A DNA stretch of 61,650 bases from the NCBI GenBank assembly GCA_902791165.1, contig CADAVB010000020.1, forward strand, positions 3,473 to 65,122, in the 5' to 3' direction. Origin of the DNA: an uncultured Bacteroidia bacterium. GTDB lineage: Bacteria; Bacteroidota; Bacteroidia; Bacteroidales; F082. A program made the translations under genes and the position numbers. The notes below the pieces were generated by a model. That model was not told where the DNA came from. It was given only the letters and a program-made list of their open reading frames with translations, and did not search any database. Of the stretch, positions 5,401 to 36,345 are shown piece after piece; within the stretch, counting starts at the first letter, position 1, and every line of letters begins with the position of its first letter.

Positions 5401-7974
5401 TCGCTGAAAGCCACCGCCGACAGCTACCAAGTGGGCGAGAATATCGTGGTGACCTTCCCCGCCAATGAACAAGCCAAGGCACTCGTCACCGTTGAAGCCA
5501 ACGACAAAGTTATGCAGACCATGTTGCTCGAGAACCTTGGTCAAGAGGGCAAGGTGGAAATCAAGGCCACGGAAGACATGATTCCGAATGTGTATGTCTA
5601 TGTCGCTCTGATTCAGCCACATGATGCCGCCAACGACCTGCCCATCCGCCTCTATGGCGTGGTGCCGGTGAAGGTCGAAAACAAGAAACTGCAACTGCAA
5701 CCGAGTATCACCACTCCCGAAACTGCCAACACGAAGAAGAAAGTCGAAATAAAGGTGAGCGAGGCCAACAAGCAAGCCATGACCTACACCTTGGCCATCG
5801 TCGATGAAGGCATCCTCGGCCTGACCAACTTCTCGACCCCGAATCCTTACGGCTACTTCAACAGCAAGCAGTCGCTTTTGGTGCGCACATGGGATAACTA
5901 CAACAACGTCGTCGATGCGTTCAGCGGCGAGCTTGGCTCGGTCTATGCCATCGGCGGCGACGGCCTCCTCAACCAAGAAATCACACTCGACAACCGCTTC
6001 AAGGCCTACGCAGTCACTTTGGGACCTTTCGAACTGAAGGCAGGCGGAAGCAATACGCACGAGTTTGAAGTGCCGCAATGCTCTGGAGCACTGCGCTTTA
6101 TGGTGGTGGCCAAAGGCGACAAGAAAGCCTTCGGTAGCGCAGAAAAGAAGGTGAACGTCGTCGATCCGATTACGCTCTACACCTCCGCGCCGCGTGTGGT
6201 GGCTCCTGGCGACGAACTGACCATGAATGTGCAGGTGCTGTCGCCCACAATGAAGGGCAAGAGCCTGTCGGTGAAGTTTGACAATCAGAACCTTAACGCC
6301 CTCGGCACGCTGCCCACTTCGGTCAGCATCGACCAAAACGGCGAAGGCATGATTGTGGTGAACACGAAGGTGCCGGAGACCACAGGCAACGCCACGCTGA
6401 AGGTGCAAGTGAGCGATGGCAGCTACACCGCTGAATCCTCGACGACCATGCCCATCCGTATGCCTTACGCCGAGCGTAGAAACGTGATTACCAAGGAAGT
6501 GGAAGGCGGACAAAGCCTCACGATTCCGTTCAATCTTGCAGGCATGGCGGGCACGCAATCCGGCAAGGTGATGGTGTCGTCGCTGCTGCCCGTCGATTTG
6601 TTCAGCCGCCTCGATTACCTCACCGACTATCCGCACGGCTGCCTCGAACAACTCACCTCGAAGGCCTTCCCGCAACTCTATCTGAACTACCTCATCCAAC
6701 AGGACGACAACGACAAGGCCGCCACGAAATACAACATCGAATCGGCCATCGCCGACCTGAAAGCCTATCAGAAAGCCGACAACTCCATGACCAACTGGAA
6801 GGGCGGCACCTACAGCGATCCGTGGACGGAGATTTACGCGCTACACTTCCTCGTTGAGGCACAAAAACAAGGCTTCGACGTGCCGCAATACTTCATCGAC
6901 GGGCTGAAGAGCTATCAGGCGAACAAGGCCAAGCAATGGAAGAACAACCCCGACTTCAAGCAGGGCGAGACCATCCAAGCCTACCGTCTCTTCGTTTTGG
7001 CTCTGGCCGATGCCGCCGAGATGGGCGCGATGAACCGCTTCAAGGAACTCGACATGAACTACTCGCTGACCCAGGCCATCACCGCTGCCGCCTTTGCGCA
7101 AACGGGCAAGACCACCGTGGCGCAAAACCTCATGCCGATGGTGACTGACGGCGAGCGGATGTCGGACTACTACACCTCATTCGGCTCCACCACCCGCGAC
7201 CTCGCCTTCCTGACCTACGCCCAGATGCTCTGCGGCACCGATGCCGAGACGGTGAAGAGCAACATCAACACCTTGTGCGGAATGTTGAACAGCGGTCGTT
7301 GGTTGGATACGCAATCAACCGCTTTTGCCTTGTTCACCTTGGGCAAATACGCTGAGCAACAAGGCGTTTCGGGCGAGAACCTCTCCGCCCTCGTGAAGGC
7401 CAACTGCGAAGACCACACGCTGAACACCAACATGAGTTCGGCAGCTTTCAGCTTTGTGCCGAAGGTGGGTAATAACTCCGTGGAAATCAAGAACAACGGT
7501 AGCCAGAAGCTGGTCGCCAACATCTTCACCAAGACCTCGGTGGCCGAATACGCCATGGAGGAAGAAGGCAACTTCATCCGCATGGCGGTGAACTACTTCG
7601 GCAAGAACGGCAATCCGCTGAATGTAAATAATTTGTCCGTTGGTACTGACGTGAATGTGCAAATCACGGTGCAGAACCCGAGCGACTATCAGGTGACGGA
7701 GTTGGCTCTGTCGTACTACCTGCCTTCGGGCTGGGAGCTGGTGAACGAGCGCATGGGCGGCGGCGACAGCAACAGCGGCGCCAAGCACATCGACTACCGC
7801 GACGACCGCGCCTACTTCTACTTCGACCTCGCGCCCAACACGCGCAAGACCTTCACCCTGAAGGCCAACGCCACCTACGAGGGCAACTACATGATTCCCG
7901 CCGTGCGCTGCGAGGATATGTACAACAACGAGATTTATTACCAGATTCCCGCGCGTGGGTGTGTGGTGAAGTAA
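2455..7974 (+). CDS. Alpha-2-macroglobulin family lipoprotein
   Basis: An 1839-residue protein with a hydrophobic N-terminus ending in a lipobox-like Cys (AFMPSC), so it is probably anchored in a membrane facing the periplasm. It carries MG-type beta domains, a bait-like region (RGVWRPGDELQLNLMLSD is a typical MG2 segment) and, at residues 1395-1399, the thioester motif G-C-L-E-Q (C1396, Q1399). An alpha/alpha thioester-domain region and a C-terminal receptor-like beta domain follow. Bacterial macroglobulins trap attacking proteases by a covalent thioester. No pbpC partner lies next to it; a strong terminator follows at once, so it looks monocistronic. Confidence 0.92.
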   Translation: MNKRKNLRKIGGISLIIMVLLLAFMPSCGKKGGTATTSSKVIVEQIKPVSEALLPLLDSYTSGVITEGEPIVVRFKDPQMLKVKSGESIPSKAFSFKPELKGKAVWLDENTIAYEYDKIDETQQYVCDFKISEFVDVPVKEPLQFGFGVRRQNFSLALVAPQCTSKDEMSYQLCIVFATPVEADDAIKIFDDAFVKKHDVKSTYLGDNTYTFEVGKLERKNADYQLELNLSGKPLKSPTQIKRQLTVHARDKFEPVGFDVENASGQAALYFSQPLKQGQNINGIITFDQNKLAYKSDIVDNRIDFYFDKSNLSRYQMEDINMNVGGGIRSASNEVMQGDFSYNFSLTDYEPKVRWTDEGVIIPDIKETTVYFDAMCLNSVTLRIIRIFDDNILSFLQDNELSETYGVRKVGRLEKKIKLQLDNPYPTQWKTFPIVLSDYVKVEPGAMYQLSLNFGPADYTFASEEMQNAVMENAQREADYWDGEGYDYKEYRYDGEWGDPNGFYFYNYVEKLKNIVVSDLAVTAKMGRNDMVDVYVFQISDAKPASGAEVTAFNFQKQQLAKATVDGKGHVQLQCANRPAFIVATDKKGSKSVIKLSDGNALSYSRFNVDGEPVEKGVIGFAYSNRGVWRPGDELQLNLMLSDVDSQLPQGYPVVLEVTDAAGRLYAKQVNTKPVNGIYCYTVPTNVSDETGLWIARFKVGTTTITKNLRVETVKPNRLEINFDLPEVISLTNPQRVNLTSKWLNGLKATGLKAEVDVKVRGGKTEFAKFKSYCFDNETEQFDPEELSVFSGPLNSEGLANVGFGPLQDLSSQQMMNAVFTTKVFEQGGDFSIASYQAKLSPFARYVGVELPETTSKYGSYYDTGKDWKFNIAVVNENGQQSNASVLLDYALYKMDSYWWWSSEELYTLQRYASGTYKRPVQNGALTCNGKTSVTFNIPNDKWGSYLLVVNDKQGGHTFAKVINFDWGYGHSSSATGAPAQLSLKATADSYQVGENIVVTFPANEQAKALVTVEANDKVMQTMLLENLGQEGKVEIKATEDMIPNVYVYVALIQPHDAANDLPIRLYGVVPVKVENKKLQLQPSITTPETANTKKKVEIKVSEANKQAMTYTLAIVDEGILGLTNFSTPNPYGYFNSKQSLLVRTWDNYNNVVDAFSGELGSVYAIGGDGLLNQEITLDNRFKAYAVTLGPFELKAGGSNTHEFEVPQCSGALRFMVVAKGDKKAFGSAEKKVNVVDPITLYTSAPRVVAPGDELTMNVQVLSPTMKGKSLSVKFDNQNLNALGTLPTSVSIDQNGEGMIVVNTKVPETTGNATLKVQVSDGSYTAESSTTMPIRMPYAERRNVITKEVEGGQSLTIPFNLAGMAGTQSGKVMVSSLLPVDLFSRLDYLTDYPHGCLEQLTSKAFPQLYLNYLIQQDDNDKAATKYNIESAIADLKAYQKADNSMTNWKGGTYSDPWTEIYALHFLVEAQKQGFDVPQYFIDGLKSYQANKAKQWKNNPDFKQGETIQAYRLFVLALADAAEMGAMNRFKELDMNYSLTQAITAAAFAQTGKTTVAQNLMPMVTDGERMSDYYTSFGSTTRDLAFLTYAQMLCGTDAETVKSNINTLCGMLNSGRWLDTQSTAFALFTLGKYAEQQGVSGENLSALVKANCEDHTLNTNMSSAAFSFVPKVGNNSVEIKNNGSQKLVANIFTKTSVAEYAMEEEGNFIRMAVNYFGKNGNPLNVNNLSVGTDVNVQITVQNPSDYQVTELALSYYLPSGWELVNERMGGGDSNSGAKHIDYRDDRAYFYFDLAPNTRKTFTLKANATYEGNYMIPAVRCEDMYNNEIYYQIPARGCVVK

Positions 7975-27386: not shown

Positions 27387-30300
27387 TTACTCGACAGGGC
27401 AAACGAGACGCACAGACCGACCGTAGTAGCGGTAGCTGTAGAAGTAGGCGACATGCACGGCCGAACCATAGAAGTTCACGGGGTACGCGTTGTAGCTATT
27501 GCCGTACGAAGCCGACCAGTAGTTGCCCCAATCGCCCACATCGACGACCGAAGTCCCATTGCGGTAGCCAGCGGCGGGCAGGAAGACCGCACCGTGAGAC
27601 TGTAGCGAGTTCGTCCATGTAGAGGAACTGATCACGTTGTTGCTGAAGCTCGCACCCTCATTATTGGTGCTATACAGCGTGTAGAAGCTACTGCTCCAAT
27701 CGTCGGGCAACAAGATAACGCCATTCACGCCTGCCACCTGCGCCTTGGCGTAACGTATGCCACTGCTGGTGCTACGGCTGTTGAATACATAACGCCATTC
27801 GCTCAGCGTCAACGTTCGCCACTGGCCTGCCGTGTTGCCGCCGTTGCTGATGGCATTGTGCACACCCCAATCGGAATGGGCGTAGCTGCCAGTGAGATCG
27901 TACTGCCCTGGAGGACCATAACTGCCATCGCTGTTGTTGGAATCCCAAGGACGGTAATACGTGTTGCCTGGGTTCCAGCCGCTTGTACCCCATCCGAAGA
28001 GGTCAATCCAGCCACTGTAAGATGATGAAATGTTGTTGTTGGCATTGCCAATATAGTCATATTGGTTGGTGGCAAAACGCCATTGGGCAGTGGAAGCCTT
28101 GTATTGCAGGTTGCCTTGCGAGAAATACACGCGCTGGCCTGCACTCACGGAGAACTTGCCGTTGATGGCGCCTGTGGGTACTTGAGGTTGTGCTGCAAAA
28201 TGCGCCACCAAACTACGATTGCTGGTCACCGTGAACGTATAATTGGCATTGGTCGAAACCTGGCTGCCATTCACAGTCCAATTAGTAAAGGTGTAGCCAT
28301 TGTTAGCCGCGGCATGCACCGTGCAGGATTGTCCGTAGGTATATGTGCCTCCACCACTCACTGTTCCGCCTGCACTCGGGCTGGCCGAGACGCTAACCGT
28401 ATAACTATTGGCTTGGAAATGGGCCACGTATGAACCTGAGGCAGCCACGGCAAAGGTGTATGACGCATTGGTTGAAACCTGCGTGCCGTTCTTTGTCCAT
28501 TTCACGAAAGAATAGCCTGTGGCTGGTGTGGCTCTCAAGGTGCAGCTTTGGCCATAGTTGTAGCTGCCGGCACCACTTACCGTACCTCCGCTACTCGGGC
28601 TTGCCGAAGCACTGATGGCATAGCTTTCCGTTTGAAAAACCGCGACAAGATTGCGGTTGGCGTTTACCGTAAAAGTATAATTGGCATTGGTAGATACTTG
28701 GCTACCGTTTTCCGTCCACTTTTGGAAGTTGTAACCCGTTGCCGCCGTAGCACGAACCGTACACGATTGTCCTTGCTCGTAGGTGCCTCCACCGGCAACG
28801 CTGCCTCCATTGCTTGGACTTGCAGAAACGGCGACGGTATATGTCGGGGTCAGTGAGGTCTTGAAGTTCACTTCCACGCCGTAGGCTGTTCCTTGTCTAT
28901 TGATGGCGTAAGCACGGACATAATAAGTGGTATTGGGTGTTAGGTTTGCCATGTTCACCGTAAACTCGCCAGTGCCCGTTCCGCTGTTGGCATGGCTTCC
29001 GCTGATGGTCGGGTTGTGGCTCGTTCCCCAACAGATGCCACGTTCCGTCACCGTTGTGCCGCCGTTGCTGACGACGTTGCCGCCACCCGTGGCCGTTGTG
29101 TTGCCGATGTTAGTCACGCTTGCCGTGGTCACGCCAGGCACTGAAATGGACAAGGTTGTAAACTGTACCTCATCGCCGTAAGCGGTGCCCGTTCCATTTG
29201 TGGCGTATGCACGCACATAATACGTCGTGTTGGACGAAAGGTTCGTCAAGGCAGCCGAAAAATCGTTGGCATCACCATCAGCAACAACATGAGTTCCTGT
29301 GATGCTTGGGGTGTGGCTTGTGCTCCAGCAAAATCCTCGTTCCGTGACGGCGTTGCCTCCATCGCTCACGATGCTTCCACTGCCCGTCGCGCTCGAAGTG
29401 GTGATGTTGGTGACTGCCCCTGTCGACACCGTAGGCGGATTGGCCGAGGTGTTGAAACTCACTTCCTCGCCGTATGCTGTGCCACGGCTGTTGGTGGCAT
29501 AAGCACGGACATAATAAGTGGTGTGAGCATTTAGGCCAGTGATATTGCAAGTGAAACTACCAGTTCCCGTGCCGCTGTTGGCATGGCTTCCACTGACTGT
29601 CGGATTATGGTTTGTACTCCAACAGATACCGCGTTCGGTCACCGTGGTGCCGCCGTCGCTTGTCACCTCACCGCCGCCTTTGGCAGCAGTTTGTGTGATA
29701 TTGGTCACTTCTGCCGTGGTCACTGCGGAAAGGTCGTAGTCCAAAGTAGTGAATGACTTTTCCTCGCCGTATGCCACGCCTTTAACGTTTTTGGCGTAGG
29801 CGCGAACATAATAGGTCGCGTTGGCAGCAAGGTTGTTCATGTTGCACGTAAACACACCCAAGCCGCTGCCCGATGTGGCATGGCTTCCCGTAACTACAGG
29901 GCTATGGTTTGTGGCCCAGCAAACGCCGCGTTCGGTCACTTCGGCACCGCCGTCTTCAGTGACGTTGCCACCACAAGAGGCTGTTGTTGTCCCCATATTC
30001 TCCACCTCGGATGTGGACACCATCGGCAGGTTGTAGTCACGAGTGGTGAAGGTCACCTTGCCGCTGGTGCCAATACCGCCGTCGTTCTTGGCGAATGCGG
30101 AACAATTATAGGTTGTGTTAGGCTCAAGGCCAGTCAATCGAGTGGGAAATTCGCCCACACCACTACCGCAATACATCGTGTCTTGCCTGCTCTCACCCTG
30201 CTTTCCATAAATGAAACCTCGTTCTGTTACAGACGAGCTGCCTTCGTTGGTCACCTCTCCTGTCACATTTGCGGAGGTTTGCGTGACTGATATGTTGTTG

Positions 30301-30401
30301 CTTATCGTCACCGTTGGCGGAGTGCTCTTCTTGCAGGCGAAGAAGCACAAAGCAAATGCTGCCAAGGCAAAAGCATTCAATATTGCCGTTTTAGTTCTCA
30401 T
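27387..30401 (-). CDS. Modular surface lipoprotein: FN3-like repeats, B-repeats and lectin-fold C-terminus
   Basis: A 1004-residue lipoprotein (signal ending FFAC, Cys23). Residues ~28-518 hold five ~98-residue FN3-like repeats (consensus VTERGICWST, NTTYYVRAYATN, GTAYGEEVSF). Residues ~519-748 hold three ~73-residue repeats (VSASPSAGGTVSGGGTY, GYNFQKWTENG) of the InlB B-repeat/Bacterial_2 kind. The C-terminal ~250 residues (FSVSAGQRVYFSQGNLQY, WRTLTLSEWRYVFNSR, VILLPDDW, YWSASYGNSYNAY, YYGRSVRLVCPVE) match the FISUMP/formylglycine-enzyme-like C-type lectin fold. It probably lies on the cell surface and binds a ligand. It starts 19 nt after the vWA lipoprotein on the same strand. Confidence 0.85.
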   Translation of the reverse strand: MRTKTAILNAFALAAFALCFFACKKSTPPTVTISNNISVTQTSANVTGEVTNEGSSSVTERGFIYGKQGESRQDTMYCGSGVGEFPTRLTGLEPNTTYNCSAFAKNDGGIGTSGKVTFTTRDYNLPMVSTSEVENMGTTTASCGGNVTEDGGAEVTERGVCWATNHSPVVTGSHATSGSGLGVFTCNMNNLAANATYYVRAYAKNVKGVAYGEEKSFTTLDYDLSAVTTAEVTNITQTAAKGGGEVTSDGGTTVTERGICWSTNHNPTVSGSHANSGTGTGSFTCNITGLNAHTTYYVRAYATNSRGTAYGEEVSFNTSANPPTVSTGAVTNITTSSATGSGSIVSDGGNAVTERGFCWSTSHTPSITGTHVVADGDANDFSAALTNLSSNTTYYVRAYATNGTGTAYGDEVQFTTLSISVPGVTTASVTNIGNTTATGGGNVVSNGGTTVTERGICWGTSHNPTISGSHANSGTGTGEFTVNMANLTPNTTYYVRAYAINRQGTAYGVEVNFKTSLTPTYTVAVSASPSNGGSVAGGGTYEQGQSCTVRATAATGYNFQKWTENGSQVSTNANYTFTVNANRNLVAVFQTESYAISASASPSSGGTVSGAGSYNYGQSCTLRATPATGYSFVKWTKNGTQVSTNASYTFAVAASGSYVAHFQANSYTVSVSASPSAGGTVSGGGTYTYGQSCTVHAAANNGYTFTNWTVNGSQVSTNANYTFTVTSNRSLVAHFAAQPQVPTGAINGKFSVSAGQRVYFSQGNLQYKASTAQWRFATNQYDYIGNANNNISSSYSGWIDLFGWGTSGWNPGNTYYRPWDSNNSDGSYGPPGQYDLTGSYAHSDWGVHNAISNGGNTAGQWRTLTLSEWRYVFNSRSTSSGIRYAKAQVAGVNGVILLPDDWSSSFYTLYSTNNEGASFSNNVISSSTWTNSLQSHGAVFLPAAGYRNGTSVVDVGDWGNYWSASYGNSYNAYPVNFYGSAVHVAYFYSYRYYGRSVRLVCPVE

Positions 30402-30419
30402 TTCAATTGAAGTATTGGA

Positions 30420-31601
30420 TTATTTGCTGCTTGATGATACAAGGGTGTTCACAAAGTTTTTGGCGTGGGTTTTCATGTCGATGAAATCGTCGCCCATCGA
30501 GTCCGTGCAGTCAAGCACCAGCATTATCAAGGCACTGTTTTTGTCAACTTCGGAACTGGTGGATTGGCCTGGTATGAATTCCGACTCCGGTGTCCAGTCG
30601 CCATCAGAGGGCTTGTGCCAAAGCCTGACCCTACTCAAGTCGGAAGACGAAACCGCTTCGTCGTTTGAATATCTCAAATTGGCAAACTTGAAAACGAAGA
30701 AGCCATCGGCATCCTTTTCAAAAGACTCGTTGCTTGGAACGTTGTTCTTGAATCCATGATAGGTTATGTTTTTCAGCACCCTGCTGTTCGATGTTTTCTC
30801 GTAAGTGGCAGTTATGTAAAGGTTGGAGCTGGCAGGGCTTGTCGCACTTCCGCCCAAATCGAAAGTGAAACTGATTTGTTCGTTAGGATAATACGCAGGA
30901 GGCACAGCCAGCGAGATGTTGGAAAAATTATAGGTGTGGCTGAGTTCCTGGGCTATTATCTGGAACTGCTGGTTGACTTGAGCCATGTTTTCGGCCATGT
31001 ATGACTTGTTGGGGCTGGCGAGTTTCTGCAAAACGGTTCGGAATCTGGGTATGTTGTTTTCTGTGATATCAGATCCCCTAAGACCAACGGAGTAGGCTGT
31101 TATCGTTTTTTCATGGATTTTCTCAGTTGTTATCCTGTCGTTCAGATAATCCCTGTAGTCATCGGGGTTTTCATAGTTGTTCGGATTCATTACTCCCGCT
31201 TGTGTCGAGTAGTTGTCCAAGCCATCGGTGAAGGTCACCAAAGACACCGTTTGGAGTTTTGGAGGTTCTTGGCAGGTTTTTAGTTTTTCAAGCCCCATGT
31301 AATCAGCATAATAGAGTCCCGTAAGCCTACCTTTTTGTAAGTTTTCAATGTAACTGAGAAACTGATTCTTGGTAGATGCATTCAACAAACTAATCTCTTT
31401 AATTGGTTCAATGATTCCGTTGCTGAAGCCGATGATACCCAAATAGATACCCTCGGTCGTCGGAGATGAACCTCCACCGTTCCCATTGTTGTTGCCCCCA
31501 TTGTTGGGATTGTTAGGGTCGTCAGGTTTCGTGCATCCAGCGGTCATCATTACCACTGCTATCAGCATCATAGTTGCTGTTGCCTTCATAAATGCTCTCA
31601 T
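30420..31601 (-). CDS. Lipoprotein with an apparently circularly permuted vWA domain
   Basis: A 393-residue lipoprotein (lipobox TAGC, Cys23) with an Asn/Gly-rich linker (residues 28-47). Residues 51-130 (GIYLGIIGFSNG, T94 in RLTGLYYAD, D126 in LVTFTDGLDNYS) look like the part of a von Willebrand A domain that normally follows helix 1. The first strand and MIDAS loop appear only at the C-terminus: LIMLVLDCTDSMGDDF with D364, T366 and S368. All MIDAS residues are thus present but in permuted order. Residues ~225-350 form an inserted beta-rich domain. It lies between the FN3 lipoprotein and the DUF4760-like gene on one strand. Confidence 0.8.
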   Translation of the reverse strand: MRAFMKATATMMLIAVVMMTAGCTKPDDPNNPNNGGNNNGNGGGSSPTTEGIYLGIIGFSNGIIEPIKEISLLNASTKNQFLSYIENLQKGRLTGLYYADYMGLEKLKTCQEPPKLQTVSLVTFTDGLDNYSTQAGVMNPNNYENPDDYRDYLNDRITTEKIHEKTITAYSVGLRGSDITENNIPRFRTVLQKLASPNKSYMAENMAQVNQQFQIIAQELSHTYNFSNISLAVPPAYYPNEQISFTFDLGGSATSPASSNLYITATYEKTSNSRVLKNITYHGFKNNVPSNESFEKDADGFFVFKFANLRYSNDEAVSSSDLSRVRLWHKPSDGDWTPESEFIPGQSTSSEVDKNSALIMLVLDCTDSMGDDFIDMKTHAKNFVNTLVSSSSK

Positions 31602-31636: not shown

Positions 31637-32218
31637 TTAATTATGATTTATATTTTTTATAAGGTTGTATAGTCTAGTGTAGTGTTCGTACAGTTCTTCT
31701 TTTTTCCGGTCTTTTCTTGTTTTAATAATAAGTTGCCCTAATCTCTTATAGGTATCACAAATTGTGGAATCATAATACTTAAGGATAAAGGGGCGAACAG
31801 TTTTATCTTCGGAAAGTATGCCTAAATACTCCATTCTATCACAGAAGTATTCTATCTTTTTATATGATTTACGCAATCTTTCTTTCGATTCTGTTTTTTC
31901 TTCTTCTGAAAGATTGATGTCGTCTTTTATCAAGCCTTTAACAACTATGTTTTCAAAATCAACAAGACTGATTTTTTCATCTTTGTTTTTCCCTAATAAA
32001 TATCTTACCGTTTCGATGTCTTTGTAATACTTATTCGATAGAATATACTCCTTACTTTGAGAGTTTTTTATACCATCCATTACCACACGTATTGACTCTG
32101 AAAATACGTTTAGGCGTTTTTTGTCTCTTTCGTTTTTCAACGAAAAAAACGCTAATACTGCTGTGGTACCAGTAGCCAAAGCGGTTACAGCGGTCAATAT
32201 GTAACTAATAATACTCAT
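31637..32218 (-). CDS. DUF4760-like single-span membrane protein
   Basis: A 193-residue protein with one N-terminal membrane helix (MSIISYILTAVTALATGTTAVLAFFSL) and a charged helical cytosolic part containing the FSESIRVVMDGIKNSQSKEYI..YYKDIETVRYLL pattern seen in DUF4760-type proteins. The ATG at 32218 is chosen because only 1 nt separates it from the stop of the peptide precursor upstream; a longer frame to 32404 is the shadow of that precursor's TGTGAT repeats. Tight coupling to a RiPP-like precursor suggests a role in export, sensing or immunity, but this is inference. Confidence 0.65.
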   Translation of the reverse strand: MSIISYILTAVTALATGTTAVLAFFSLKNERDKKRLNVFSESIRVVMDGIKNSQSKEYILSNKYYKDIETVRYLLGKNKDEKISLVDFENIVVKGLIKDDINLSEEEKTESKERLRKSYKKIEYFCDRMEYLGILSEDKTVRPFILKYYDSTICDTYKRLGQLIIKTRKDRKKEELYEHYTRLYNLIKNINHN

Positions 32219-32219
32219 T

Positions 32220-32414
32220 CTACCAACCTCGATCACAGGAATCACACATGTCACAAGAATAATTTTCACTATCACAATCGCAGTCGCAACTAGTATCACA
32301 ACTATCACAATCACTATCACACGAATCGCAAAAACAGTTTTCTTTGCTACCTTCTTGAAGATATAGATTGGAGAAATCGAAAACCAGCATTTTGCTGAAG
32401 TCAAGTTCTTTCAT
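32220..32414 (-). CDS. Cys/Asp-rich RiPP-like precursor peptide B
   Basis: A 64-residue peptide. Residues 9-17 read MLVFDFSNL, then Q20 and, exactly ten residues after L17, the N-C-F boundary (C27). The core (27-64) has 11 Cys, ten of them followed directly by Asp (CDSCDSDCDSC, CDCDCD, CDMCDSC), ending in RGW. Precursor A shares the leader motif and the same spacing. It is encoded 16 nt after precursor A and downstream of a radical SAM-SPASM gene. A Cys-to-Asp thioether-bearing ranthipeptide-like product is a reasonable guess. Confidence 0.75.
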   Translation of the reverse strand: MKELDFSKMLVFDFSNLYLQEGSKENCFCDSCDSDCDSCDTSCDCDCDSENYSCDMCDSCDRGW

Positions 32415-32430
32415 TTACAAAGAATTAAGG

Positions 32431-32619
32431 TTAATTGTCTTGCCAAATTTCATGGTCAGGATCATAGTTTTCCCATGGGTCACCATCGCAGTCGCAATCA
32501 CAAACGCAAGGTTCTGCTTCACATGTAAAGCAATTGTCATTGGCTGTGTTTTGGGTGGTTAGATTGTTATAATCAAAAACAATCATTTCTTCGGGTTTTG
32601 TTTTCTTGTTCATATTCAT
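32431..32619 (-). CDS. Cys/Asp-rich RiPP-like precursor peptide A
   Basis: A 62-residue peptide. Residues 12-20 read MIVFDYNNL, with Q23 and the N-C-F boundary at C30, ten residues after L20, just as in precursor B. The core has six Cys (30, 33, 38, 40, 42, 44) including CDCDCD, followed by an aromatic, acidic tail (DPWENYDPDHEIWQDN). Its ATG overlaps the radical SAM stop (ATGA), so synthesis is probably coupled to the enzyme. A second ATG two codons in is possible. No double-Gly leader cleavage site is seen. Confidence 0.75.
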   Translation of the reverse strand: MNMNKKTKPEEMIVFDYNNLTTQNTANDNCFTCEAEPCVCDCDCDGDPWENYDPDHEIWQDN

Positions 32620-33953
32620 CTGTTTAAGGGTTGTTCAATTATTTTGAGAACTTTCTTTCTTATCAAAAAAGTGATAATGTCTTGGATTTGTGGATTGTCG
32701 GGCGAAAGATGGTTTGCTTGGCATAACGCTCCAAAAGAGAAACTGTCTTGCTCCTTCAAACCCATAATGAACTCATAATAAGCCTGATTCACCATAAAAA
32801 ACACATCGTCAGCGGCATTGTAAATCACCCATGCTTCTTCGTCTTCTTTCCTTGCTTGGAGGTCGGGCGTGAATTGCAGCCGTGTTTCGGGATTCAGTTC
32901 AATAGTTAGATGGTCGTTGTTCGGTGGCAAAACGGCCAGTTTCCCCGTACACCACATATCGTTTTTGTTCCAGTCACCATTGAAGGCTTTGGCACTAGTG
33001 CGGCAGCCGCCGTTGCAGCGGTTGAGCCAAACGCAGTCGAGACATGGCTCTGGTACATATTGGGCCGATCGCCAGTCGCTCATCTTTTGCCAGATGCCAC
33101 GCAGGTCTTCTTCCAAAAGGTTGCCATACGAATAAGGATTGTGGGCGCAAGGGCGTACATTACCGTTGCACGACACGGCAATCACCGTCCGCCCCGCCTG
33201 ACATTTGCGGTTCAAGAAGGCGTGCTTCTCCATCAAGACCGTTTCGGGAAACACGCATTTAGGCAGGGCTTCAAGCACATCCACTTTCAGTCCCAACGCT
33301 TTTTCAATCCAAAGCAGGTCGGCAATCACTTGGCGAACCTCCTCAACCGTCAAAAGCAAATCGAGCTTTGGGTATTCCACATTCAAGCCCATAGGCGTGG
33401 CGGCAAACGACTTGCAGCCCAAAACCTTCATCTTTTCGGCGGTCGGCCTGATTTCGTGCAGGTTTTCTTTGGTCACCACCATATTGACGGTGCATCTCAC
33501 TCCAGCTGCAACTAACTTTTTGAGATTAGCCTCAAACCTGGCATAGTTGTCAACGCCTACAAGCTTGGTGAATGATGCAGGAAAACCCGAAGGGCAGGAG
33601 GTCAGCACCCCGACTTTCTTTTCCTTCAGAAAGGCGATGAAATCGTCGTCGAAAAGCGTGAGGTTGGAATTGAGGCTCACGCGGATTTGATGCTCTTTCA
33701 ACAGACTGATAACCTGCTTGGTGAGTTCCTTTTTGATGAGCGGCTCGCCACCTGTGACAATTACACCAAAAACATGGTTGTCAATCAGTTTTTGGGCGCA
33801 CTTCAAAACGATTTCATCATCCACATGGCGCGTCGGTCGGTTTTGGATTTCCGAATCAAGGTTGTAGCAATGAATGCAACGGTGATTGCAGCAATCCGTC
33901 ACCTCAAGTTGCGCGGTGAGTGGCAATGACAAGTATCGTTTTTCGATTTGCAT
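32616..33953 (-). CDS. Radical SAM/SPASM peptide maturase
   Basis: A 445-residue enzyme. The radical SAM cluster motif is C22-x3-C26-x2-C29 (TDCCNHRCIHCYNL) and GGEP is at 68-71. A SPASM domain carries C251, C262, C269, the CX2CX5CX3C set C304/C307/C313/C317, and C335, enough for two auxiliary Fe-S clusters. Residues ~345-440 (AWVIYNAADDVFFMVNQAYYEFIMGL..ITFLIRKKVL) look like a PqqD-type RiPP recognition element. The two Cys-rich precursors follow at once. It most likely installs thioether or related cross-links on them. Confidence 0.88.
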   Translation of the reverse strand: MQIEKRYLSLPLTAQLEVTDCCNHRCIHCYNLDSEIQNRPTRHVDDEIVLKCAQKLIDNHVFGVIVTGGEPLIKKELTKQVISLLKEHQIRVSLNSNLTLFDDDFIAFLKEKKVGVLTSCPSGFPASFTKLVGVDNYARFEANLKKLVAAGVRCTVNMVVTKENLHEIRPTAEKMKVLGCKSFAATPMGLNVEYPKLDLLLTVEEVRQVIADLLWIEKALGLKVDVLEALPKCVFPETVLMEKHAFLNRKCQAGRTVIAVSCNGNVRPCAHNPYSYGNLLEEDLRGIWQKMSDWRSAQYVPEPCLDCVWLNRCNGGCRTSAKAFNGDWNKNDMWCTGKLAVLPPNNDHLTIELNPETRLQFTPDLQARKEDEEAWVIYNAADDVFFMVNQAYYEFIMGLKEQDSFSFGALCQANHLSPDNPQIQDIITFLIRKKVLKIIEQPLNR

Positions 33954-34052: not shown

Positions 34053-34367
34053 TTATTTGGCAATTGCTGTATTCAACAGTTTGGCCAATTGAAGGACTAT
34101 TTCGGGACTTAAGTTGTCCAAATGAATGGCGAATGATGGTGCTTGGGGTATCAAGCCATAATGCGATTCAACATCTGACAGGAAATTATGCTTTAGCGCC
34201 AAGGAGATTTTGGCCAGCAGCACAGAGTCGATGCTGGGACGCTCGAAGAGGCTGTAAACCGTGGTGCGCTCCAAGTGGATTTGCCTCGCAAACTCCGACA
34301 CACTCATCCCGCTCTCGTCGAAGACGGCTTTGATAAGGTGTCCGATATGCATGTCTCGCGTGGCCAT
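34053..34367 (-). CDS. XRE-family helix-turn-helix regulator
   Basis: A 104-residue protein whose residues ~6-65 (HIGHLIKAVFDESGMSVSEFARQIHLERTTVYSLFERPSIDSVLLAKISLALKHNF) form a lambda-repressor-like HTH: Ser-Val-Ser-Glu-Phe-Ala-Arg for the turn and TTVYSLF for recognition. The rest may be a dimerisation tail. ATG 34367 starts the HTH cleanly. It lies upstream of, and on the same strand as, the radical SAM peptide operon, with about 100 nt between, and divergent from abiEi; it may regulate either. Confidence 0.75.
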   Translation of the reverse strand: MATRDMHIGHLIKAVFDESGMSVSEFARQIHLERTTVYSLFERPSIDSVLLAKISLALKHNFLSDVESHYGLIPQAPSFAIHLDNLSPEIVLQLAKLLNTAIAK

Positions 34368-34759: not shown

Positions 34760-35554
34760 ATGACCATATTTGAATGGATAAGGAATCGGGAAATTCGTGG
34801 GAAGGTGACATTCTCTGTAGAGGAATTGAAGCAGGCCTTTAGCGAGAAGTCTTATGAAACAATCCAGTCAGAATTGACTCGTTTTGCGAAAAAGGGCTAC
34901 ATCAGTTCGGTTTATCGTGGGTTTTATGTGGTGGTGCCTGTGCAGTATCAGTTGAAGGGCATTGTTCCGCCAGTGTATTATATTGACTGGCTCATGCGGT
35001 ATGTCGGCAAGCCTTACTATCTCAGTTTGCTCTCAGCCGCCGCAATGCATGGGGCCTCGCATCAGGCGGTCATGATAACGCAGGTAACCACTGTTGCACC
35101 AAGAATTAAGTATTCCTCGAAGAATCCCGATTTGAATTGGAACTATCGAAAGCAAATCCCTGAAGAGCTTTTGATGATCAAGAACACCGAAGCGGGAGTG
35201 GTGCGCTATTCCAACCCTGAACTTACCGCCGTTGATTTGGTGCAGTTTGCCGATCATGTTGGAGGTTATCAAAGGGCATCAACTGTACTTGCCGAACTTG
35301 TTGAGGCAATGGACATGGGAAAGATGGCGGCTGTTGTGCCCTACACGACCATAGCTACACTGCAACGGCTTGGCTATTTACTGGAATATGTGCTTGAAGA
35401 ACAGGAAATGGCTGATGCTTTGTTTCTGATACTGAAAGAGCATGGCCAATGGAAAAGCATATCATTAAGGAATGACCGCCCGAAAAAAGAGATGGCGCGA
35501 CCCAACAGATGGCATGTAAACGGAAATGTTGAAATTGAAATTGATGACTTATGA
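34760..35554 (+). CDS. abiEi: AbiEi-family antitoxin
   Basis: A 264-residue protein with an N-terminal winged helix (FSVEELKQAFSEKSYETIQSELTRFAKKGYISSVYRGFYVV) and the AbiEi C-terminal domain (YYLSLLSAAAMHGASHQAVMITQVTT, then VRYSNPELTAVDLVQFADHVGG). AbiEi represses its own operon and counteracts the AbiEii nucleotidyltransferase in a type IV toxin-antitoxin and phage abortive-infection system. Its stop overlaps the abiEii ATG by 4 nt. Confidence 0.9.
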   Translation: MTIFEWIRNREIRGKVTFSVEELKQAFSEKSYETIQSELTRFAKKGYISSVYRGFYVVVPVQYQLKGIVPPVYYIDWLMRYVGKPYYLSLLSAAAMHGASHQAVMITQVTTVAPRIKYSSKNPDLNWNYRKQIPEELLMIKNTEAGVVRYSNPELTAVDLVQFADHVGGYQRASTVLAELVEAMDMGKMAAVVPYTTIATLQRLGYLLEYVLEEQEMADALFLILKEHGQWKSISLRNDRPKKEMARPNRWHVNGNVEIEIDDL

Positions 35555-36345
35555 TACACAGAGAATCCATATTATCTTGGAACGAATTTGTTCCATGGCA
35601 AACCCATGCAAAGGTTGAGCAAGACCTGCTCATCTGCCGTTCACTCGTGGCCATTTATAACGACGACTTTCTCGCGTCGCAGTTGGCTTTTCGGGGTGGA
35701 ACGGCCTTGCACAAGTTGTACCTTTCGCCTCAGCCGCGCTATAGCGAGGACATCGACCTTGTGCAAATCCAACCCGGGCCTATCAAGGACATTCTGTTTC
35801 GATTAGGCGAAGTTTTGGATTTCATGCCTGACCGAGTGACCAAGCCCAAGCGTTATAACAATACGATGCTTTTCCGTATGGAGTCGGAAATACCGCCTAC
35901 CGTTCCCATCCGCCTGAAGGTGGAAATCAATTGCTATGAGCATTTTGATGTGCTGGGATTAGTCAAGAAGCCTTTCTCGGTTGAAAGCAGTTGGTTCACA
36001 GGGCAAGCCGAACTGACTACGTATCAGTTCAATGAGTTGTTAGGAACCAAGATGCGGGCCTTGTATCAGCGCAGGAAGGGCCGCGATTTGTTTGATTTGT
36101 ATGTCGGGCTTACCGAAAGCCAGTACAATGCTGAGGAAATCATTCAATGCTACAATCGTTACATGGCTTTTACGGTGGAGAAACAGCCAACTTACAAGCA
36201 ATTTGTGAACAATATGGAAGCCAAGCTGAATGACGCGGAGTTTTTGGGCGATACGATAGGGTTGCTACGTTCTGAAAAGTCGTTTGACCCTATGACCGCC
36301 TATCAACTTGTGAAGGAAACACTGATTGACAGGTTGCAGAAATAA
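35551..36345 (+). CDS. abiEii: AbiEii nucleotidyltransferase toxin
   Basis: A 264-residue protein of the DNA polymerase beta-like nucleotidyltransferase fold: FRGGTALHKLYLSPQPRYSEDIDLVQI contains the GG-T and hSxDhD catalytic motif. The later segment YQFNELLGTKMRALYQRRKGRDLFDLYV is the conserved AbiEii block with the second Lys/Arg-rich motif. Related toxins add nucleotides to tRNA or another target and halt growth. All active-site residues I can see are intact, so the toxin should be functional. Confidence 0.9.
   Translation: MIHRESILSWNEFVPWQTHAKVEQDLLICRSLVAIYNDDFLASQLAFRGGTALHKLYLSPQPRYSEDIDLVQIQPGPIKDILFRLGEVLDFMPDRVTKPKRYNNTMLFRMESEIPPTVPIRLKVEINCYEHFDVLGLVKKPFSVESSWFTGQAELTTYQFNELLGTKMRALYQRRKGRDLFDLYVGLTESQYNAEEIIQCYNRYMAFTVEKQPTYKQFVNNMEAKLNDAEFLGDTIGLLRSEKSFDPMTAYQLVKETLIDRLQK

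Follow-up and report, generated by a model that had tools for sequence, protein, structure and literature searches.

We describe here a gene cassette of some gut and rumen Bacteroidales in which a radical SAM-SPASM enzyme stands beside two small Cys/Asp-rich peptides and a membrane protein of the DUF4760 family. Our preferred reading, to which we assign a probability of roughly 0.55, is that of a rare, recombining two-peptide RiPP cassette, a new ranthipeptide-like family whose peptides would carry Cys-to-Asp/Asn links and whose DUF4760 protein is their likely partner or immunity protein. None of the family models tried, for enzymes or for precursors, takes in the system, yet judged from its sequences it probably works like a ranthipeptide system. 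Of the marks of a radical SAM-modified RiPP, a precursor gene beside the enzyme, a conserved leader and a variable core are present. Bacteroidales species seem to exchange portions of the cassette, along with a membrane protein that possibly protects the producer.

Composition and distribution of the cassette

In the window (the whole stretch of 61,650 nucleotides that was analysed), the cassette consists of an HTH gene, the radical SAM-SPASM enzyme, the Cys/Asp peptides A and B and a DUF4760 membrane protein, with the following features:

34053-34367, minus strand: HTH-type putative regulator, 104 aa; HTH_26/HTH_3 matches below cut-off
32616-33953, minus strand: radical SAM/SPASM peptide maturase, 445 aa, predicted order rSAM - SPASM - RRE; PF04055 E 1.5e-21, PF13186 SPASM E 1.8e-8
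33867-33890, minus strand: radical SAM cluster motif C22-x3-C26-x2-C29, kept in 9/9 sequences, window included
32949-33203, minus strand: SPASM cysteines C251, C269, C304, C307, C313, C317 and C335, spacing identical in every enzyme that is both full-length and unbroken (7, counting the window's)
32634-32882, minus strand: predicted RRE-fold domain, residues ~358-440 of the enzyme, modelled alone and assigned by structure comparison
32431-32619, minus strand: precursor peptide A, 62 aa; leader profile E 1.9e-17
32530-32577, minus strand: leader motif of A, FDYNNLTTQ...NC
32220-32414, minus strand: precursor peptide B, 64 aa, C-terminus CDRGW; leader profile E 3.2e-14
32334-32381, minus strand: leader motif of B, FDFSNLYLQ...NC
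31637-32218, minus strand: DUF4760 protein, 193 aa, predicted N-terminal membrane helix; PF15956 E 1.9e-8
30420-31601, minus strand: lipoprotein-like gene directly 3' of DUF4760, signal-peptide-like start; cassette membership uncertain

An earlier, sequence-only reading had reported three overlapping or abutting minus-strand genes, and all of their features were confirmed at the stated coordinates. Enzyme and peptide A overlap by 4 bases, 16 bases separate A from B, and a single base lies between B and the DUF4760 gene. That reading did not include the DUF4760 gene itself, the HTH gene upstream of the enzyme, the Trp with which B peptides end, or the mosaic nature of the cassettes.

A contig search returned 30 loci, eight at 65-85% enzyme identity (L004-L011) and 22 at 21-26%. 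The eight close loci are all labelled as Bacteroidia, Bacteroidales or Prevotellaceae, which is why we place the window in the order Bacteroidales, and for at least four of them the sample was rumen, reticulum or cecum. L010 ends inside the enzyme at a contig end; in the seven close homologues with downstream sequence, one or more leader-bearing peptides and a DUF4760 homologue invariably lie directly downstream (7/7), with both precursors in six and one in L005. An HTH homologue is upstream in six of nine loci, window included. In L011 the enzyme frame is broken in the assembly (6001-7205) and the precursors and DUF4760 homologue are open; the lone precursor of L005 (7319-7475) has an A-like start, a B-like leader and no terminal Trp, and is possibly an A/B fusion.

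The enzyme is rare. Counting the window's own genome each time, it was found in 2/173 genomes from the family of the window, 3/393 sampled across the order and 1/395 sampled across the phylum. Two further carriers belong to other families, in which 2/31 and 3/104 genomes have it, one of the 2/31 being a distant match only (E 2.8e-33). All additional genomes proved to be records already represented by L004-L008 (for L006 and L007 judged by their contig positions), so that the distinct loci number nine.

The peptides share a leader of the pattern [FY]-[DE]-[FY]-x-x-[LI]-x-x-Q, with ten residues from Leu/Ile to Cys in all 15 peptides of eight loci, including the window's two, in both of which the motif and ten-residue Leu-to-Cys spacing first noticed from sequence hold. 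A strict form of the pattern, with Phe obligatory before Asp, misses most peptides; downstream frames were read and a looser pattern was used. Beyond the cassettes the looser pattern produced a single match, in L051, which is a chance one interrupted by an internal stop codon. With E below 1e-13 the leader profile matches exactly three of the 393 order genomes, these being the three enzyme carriers, and the next best match is at 1e-3; at a loose limit of E 0.05 it matches 38 of the 393. The whole-peptide profile at E 1e-6 found the window's genome only, among 335 phylum genomes. The pattern is absent from all 22 distant radical SAM loci, and a scan of small Cys-rich frames near distant radical SAM genes gave nothing resembling A or B. 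Likewise, a leader-bearing peptide was not found among the genes near a distant radical SAM relative (L073), nor among those near the sole DUF4760 gene found outside a cassette (L074). Enzyme and leader are thus an isolated, rare and constant pair in the data examined. The recurrence of the leader alongside the enzyme in 8/8 loci with sequence on both sides (window included), the confinement of its hits to the three enzyme carriers among 393 genomes, and the RRE fold described below strongly support the earlier proposal that the neighbouring radical SAM enzyme acts on these peptides as its substrates.

We discount carriage as phage or plasmid cargo: a relative was confirmed in none of 49 candidate stretches in viral contigs, and plasmid and phage matches are merely 21-29% identical. 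Among the plasmid proteins are Escherichia coli and Salmonella radical SAM proteins that align with 73% of the enzyme at ~28% identity. Among the openly licensed papers listed, screened by titles and abstract openings, no description was found of the leader, the cores or DUF4760 with a RiPP, which does not imply absence from print; papers found with peptide strings were unrelated by title.

The maturase and its C-terminal domain

Both the C22-x3-C26-x2-C29 motif and the SPASM Cys set claimed for the enzyme from sequence are present, the latter as C251, C269, C304-x2-C307-x5-C313-x3-C317 and C335, in what we take to be the usual SPASM spacing, with GGEP at residue 68. The closest solved structures are a mixture of radical SAM enzymes (anSME, SkfB, SuiB and PqqE), and the predicted model of the full enzyme is weak (pLDDT 57.7).

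The enzyme falls under the cut-off of every NCBIfam equivalog among the 25 of 90 matches listed, and by this measure does not cluster with an already characterised precursor family. Its top score among the matches listed, over rSAM and SPASM, is to the GeoRSP radical SAM/SPASM family (TIGR04303), a likeness that at 111.7 bits lies far below the cut-off of 400. The PapA/PapB freyrasin ranthipeptides resemble the system described here in their radical SAM-SPASM maturase, direction by a leader and repeated units of Cys before Asp, but the window enzyme scores 74.3 against the PapB cut-off of 340 bits (NF047865), the prevailing unit here is CX0[D/N] rather than CX3D, and the RRE here is predicted to be C-terminal; the curated cut-off and the Cys-Asp spacing rule out assignment to PapA/PapB. 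SCIFF/CteB similarly offers a Cys-rich precursor and a radical SAM-SPASM enzyme with an RRE, but the window's peptides A and B match no NCBIfam family at E up to 1, the SCIFF model (TIGR03973) among them, and the RRE of CteB is N-terminal according to PMC8326336; family model and spacing rule out assignment to SCIFF. That article also places a C-terminal RRE in proteusin radical SAM epimerases, but describes these as having the radical SAM cluster only, whereas the window enzyme has a SPASM set.

Because VIA-align of the full enzyme aligned residues 17-322 only and left the C-terminus uncovered, the C-terminal domain was modelled alone. The isolated model matches RRE structures in both Foldseek and VIA-align, although Foldseek gave a single match with E < 0.001 and in VIA-align some non-RRE proteins score almost as high as RREs. 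Sequence searches with the domain gave nothing convincing, with one of seven members weakly matching the McbB family (E 0.0066). The sequence-only reading had called this C-terminus PqqD-like; the label finds no PqqD family match by sequence, and what stands is the RRE fold of the predicted model. An RRE, the candidate leader-binding domain, is present as a predicted fold, and the order of domains would be rSAM-SPASM-RRE. We propose that A and B are both bound by this RRE through their leader strand, [FY]-[DE]-[FY]-x-x-[LI]-x-x-Q, although RRE identity and leader identity show no correlation across loci, which we count against our reading.

Mosaic evolution and the DUF4760 protein

The two ends of the cassette have diverged to different degrees. 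In a comparison of eight loci, which omits L010, identity is 79-94% for enzyme residues 1-338 but 38-69% for the RRE portion. DUF4760 is at 27-67%, and the cores diverge too. In DNA, L006 and L008 are 84-95% identical from 700 upstream to ~950 into the enzyme and then 46-66% (L008 6001-8508; L006 1622-3886), a drop that we read as a probable recombination breakpoint close to where the SPASM domain ends.

The window's DUF4760 protein scores 35.0 bits against PF15956 (gathering cut-off 25), and a homologue is present in all eight complete cassettes; with a limit of E 0.01, seven of these eight proteins are matched by PF15956. One or two membrane helices are predicted at the N-terminus by hydropathy, and at E up to 1 there is no solved relative by sequence. 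Elsewhere the family is uncommon, with PF15956 in 2 of 149 sampled order genomes, the window's own included. As a control, the same search was run on five other carriers. In four it recovered the copy in the cassette and no additional one, the miss being the L008 carrier. With 4/5 recovered in this control, and 7/8 of the cassette proteins matching, a failure of the model to see its members does not chiefly explain the rarity, and the presence of DUF4760 in 8/8 cassettes is not background.

Within seven loci, identity of the B tail (its last 8-15 residues) tracks that of DUF4760 with r 0.85-0.89, values reached in 2-4 of 5040 permutations. For longer tails r declines, to 0.78 for the last 18 residues (10 of 5040) and 0.72 for the last 20 (31 of 5040). 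The B tail shows no correlation with the enzyme (r about -0.2), and none of the A tail, A leader and B leader is correlated with DUF4760. Among the 21 pairings tabulated, three others are mildly high and carry no weight in our reading: A leader with A tail (r 0.44, 202 of 5040), RRE with A tail (0.37, 414) and RRE with DUF4760 (0.29, 137). We regard the correlation as a lead and not as proof, since it was seen by eye before it was tested, the genes touch, and the 21 pairings were tabulated later. Two observations count against our reading: distances over whole peptides do not correlate, and L005 has a DUF4760 protein without a Trp-ended B peptide.

The adjacency of the B 3' end to DUF4760 means that linkage alone could yield the tail correlation, and it is quite possible, if not our choice, that DUF4760 is a mere neighbour whose agreement with the B tail reflects linkage after recombination. 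In the window a single base separates DUF4760 from the stop codon of B, and any upstream breakpoint would carry both. This explanation has to accommodate a gene that is rare elsewhere (with no second copy in the 4/4 carriers that gave a match) yet present in every complete cassette, and the genes 3' of DUF4760 differ, by their N-termini, within both of the best-matched pairs. We favor the reading in which matured B is matched to its co-inherited DUF4760, which would most likely be the producer's immunity protein, or else a receptor. As an immunity protein it would imply a product that serves in competition among gut Bacteroidales, presumably secreted and antagonistic. The natural swaps are ready-made pairs for asking where in the cassette specificity is determined, and whether the producer owes protection to DUF4760.

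Peptide cores, proposed chemistry and gene surroundings

The cores follow a strong nearest-neighbour rule. Across 15 peptides from eight loci, counted from after the leader Cys and with L010 contributing no peptides, Asp follows 82 of 113 core Cys, Asp/Asn 104 and Asp/Asn/Glu 109; shuffled cores give 26%, 38% and 41% respectively, and the observed values were reached by none of 2000 shuffles, although these overstate independence because the peptides are related by descent. The window peptides alone show the same pattern (13/15 core Cys precede Asp; shuffle mean 28%, reached by 0/2000), and CDCDCD in both A and B and the placement of 10 of the 11 Cys of B before Asp are as first noted from sequence. 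Asp two residues after Cys is depleted (5/112). At +4, the PapA-type distance, Asp occurs in 37/108 (shuffle mean 26%, reached by 34/2000) and Asp/Asn/Glu in 54/108 (41%, 58/2000), a mild excess that makes no rule, and CX3D/E is not a general unit of these cores. The motif CD-x-[GND]-W ends all seven B peptides, and a terminal Trp is found in 0/8 A-position peptides. A plain DNA repeat as the origin of the window B core is argued against by its mixed Cys, Asp and Ser codons.

We propose that cores held through the RRE would be fed as Cys-[Asp/Asn] units to the radical SAM-SPASM site, where hydrogen would be abstracted from the acceptor side chain and the Cys sulfur joined to the beta-carbon of a nearby Asp or Asn, with several links per peptide and 2 Da lost per link. 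We infer this thioether chemistry from Asp/Asn after Cys and from precedents. Exchange of Asp for Asn points to the beta-carbon, because both residues have a beta-carbon next to a carbonyl, and beta-thioethers are described for freyrasin (Cys-Asp) and NxxcA (Cys-Asn) in PMC8326336. That source gives the Streptococcus NxxcA/NxxcB system as one in which Asn is a possible acceptor linked through its beta-carbon, but the link there is single and Asn precedes Cys, whereas here Asn follows. According to PMC9413430, Cys-Xn-Asp substrates are converted by PapB across n = 0-6, though not fully at either extreme, and those with Asp before Cys yielded no product; the prevailing C-D adjacency differs from PapA CX3D, and we count this, together with the incomplete conversion of CX0D, against our reading. 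A strict Cys-[Asp/Asn] code in so compact a family would be a clean substrate for the choice of acceptor carbon by radical SAM-SPASM enzymes.

It is rather unlikely, though well worth weighing, that the enzyme modifies the peptides by another reaction (a C-alpha sactionine link, epimerisation, or Cys- or Asp-directed C-C or C-N bonds) and recognises Cys-Asp pairs as a unit. The mixed set of nearest structures and the GeoRSP family as top score among the matches listed are consistent with this, and regiochemistry is fixed by no sequence feature tested, but Cys is in every unit, and the D/N exchange favors a reaction on the Asp/Asn side chain or next to it. A bolder form of the thioether proposal, which we consider unlikely, has each Cys-Asp/Asn pair closing a seven-membered thioether ring between neighbours to give chains of adjacent rings. 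The system would then be a distinct RiPP class with a C-terminal-RRE radical SAM-SPASM enzyme and two peptides acting together, its RRE-A-B-DUF4760 half being swapped onto a constant catalytic half, and DUF4760 being a new type of immunity protein or receptor.

Metal or iron-sulfur binding by the cores, with the peptides as maturation-dependent metallopeptides and DUF4760 as a membrane partner in uptake or sensing, appears distinctly improbable. Dense Cys-Asp pairs suit it, as do CX2C spacing (Cys at +3 in 44/111, shuffle mean 24%) and CXC spacing (+2 in 30/112, no excess over shuffles). It would also sit well with the survey of export functions: by eye, neither exporter nor leader peptidase was recognised among the genes listed around the loci, most of which were not run against family models, and Peptidase_C39 was not found in the window's genome (98.7% complete). 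The leaders show no GG site, and these three results count against the secretion that our preferred reading supposes. However, classical metallothionein-like peptides require neither a radical SAM enzyme nor a leader, and metal binding by itself does not demand Asp or Asn right after Cys.

The window also contains an AbiEi/AbiEii type IV toxin-antitoxin pair (34760-36345), divergent from the cassette; an AbiEi homologue lies upstream in L004 and homologues of both AbiE genes are present in L010. The alternative that the cassette lies in a defence island and acts against phage or as an addiction module, instead of making a secreted product, could draw on these AbiE-type genes in 3/9 loci (at most two independent cases, since the window and L004 belong to the same genus), on the membrane protein of every complete cassette and on the patchy, swapped occurrence, but it is very improbable, as DUF4760 from the window, L004 and L009 has no PADLOC match and the enzyme matches viperins there through the shared radical SAM fold.

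The gene after DUF4760 has a signal-peptide-like start in 8/8 loci, with N-termini read by eye rather than by a predictor, and belongs to differing families. In the window, the lipoprotein-like genes that follow DUF4760 (27387-31601) include one with a weak VWA match; another combines fn3 and InlB-type repeats with weak similarity to Fib_succ_major (FISUMP). In several other loci the gene after DUF4760 has CsgG or Lcl_C/FISUMP matches.
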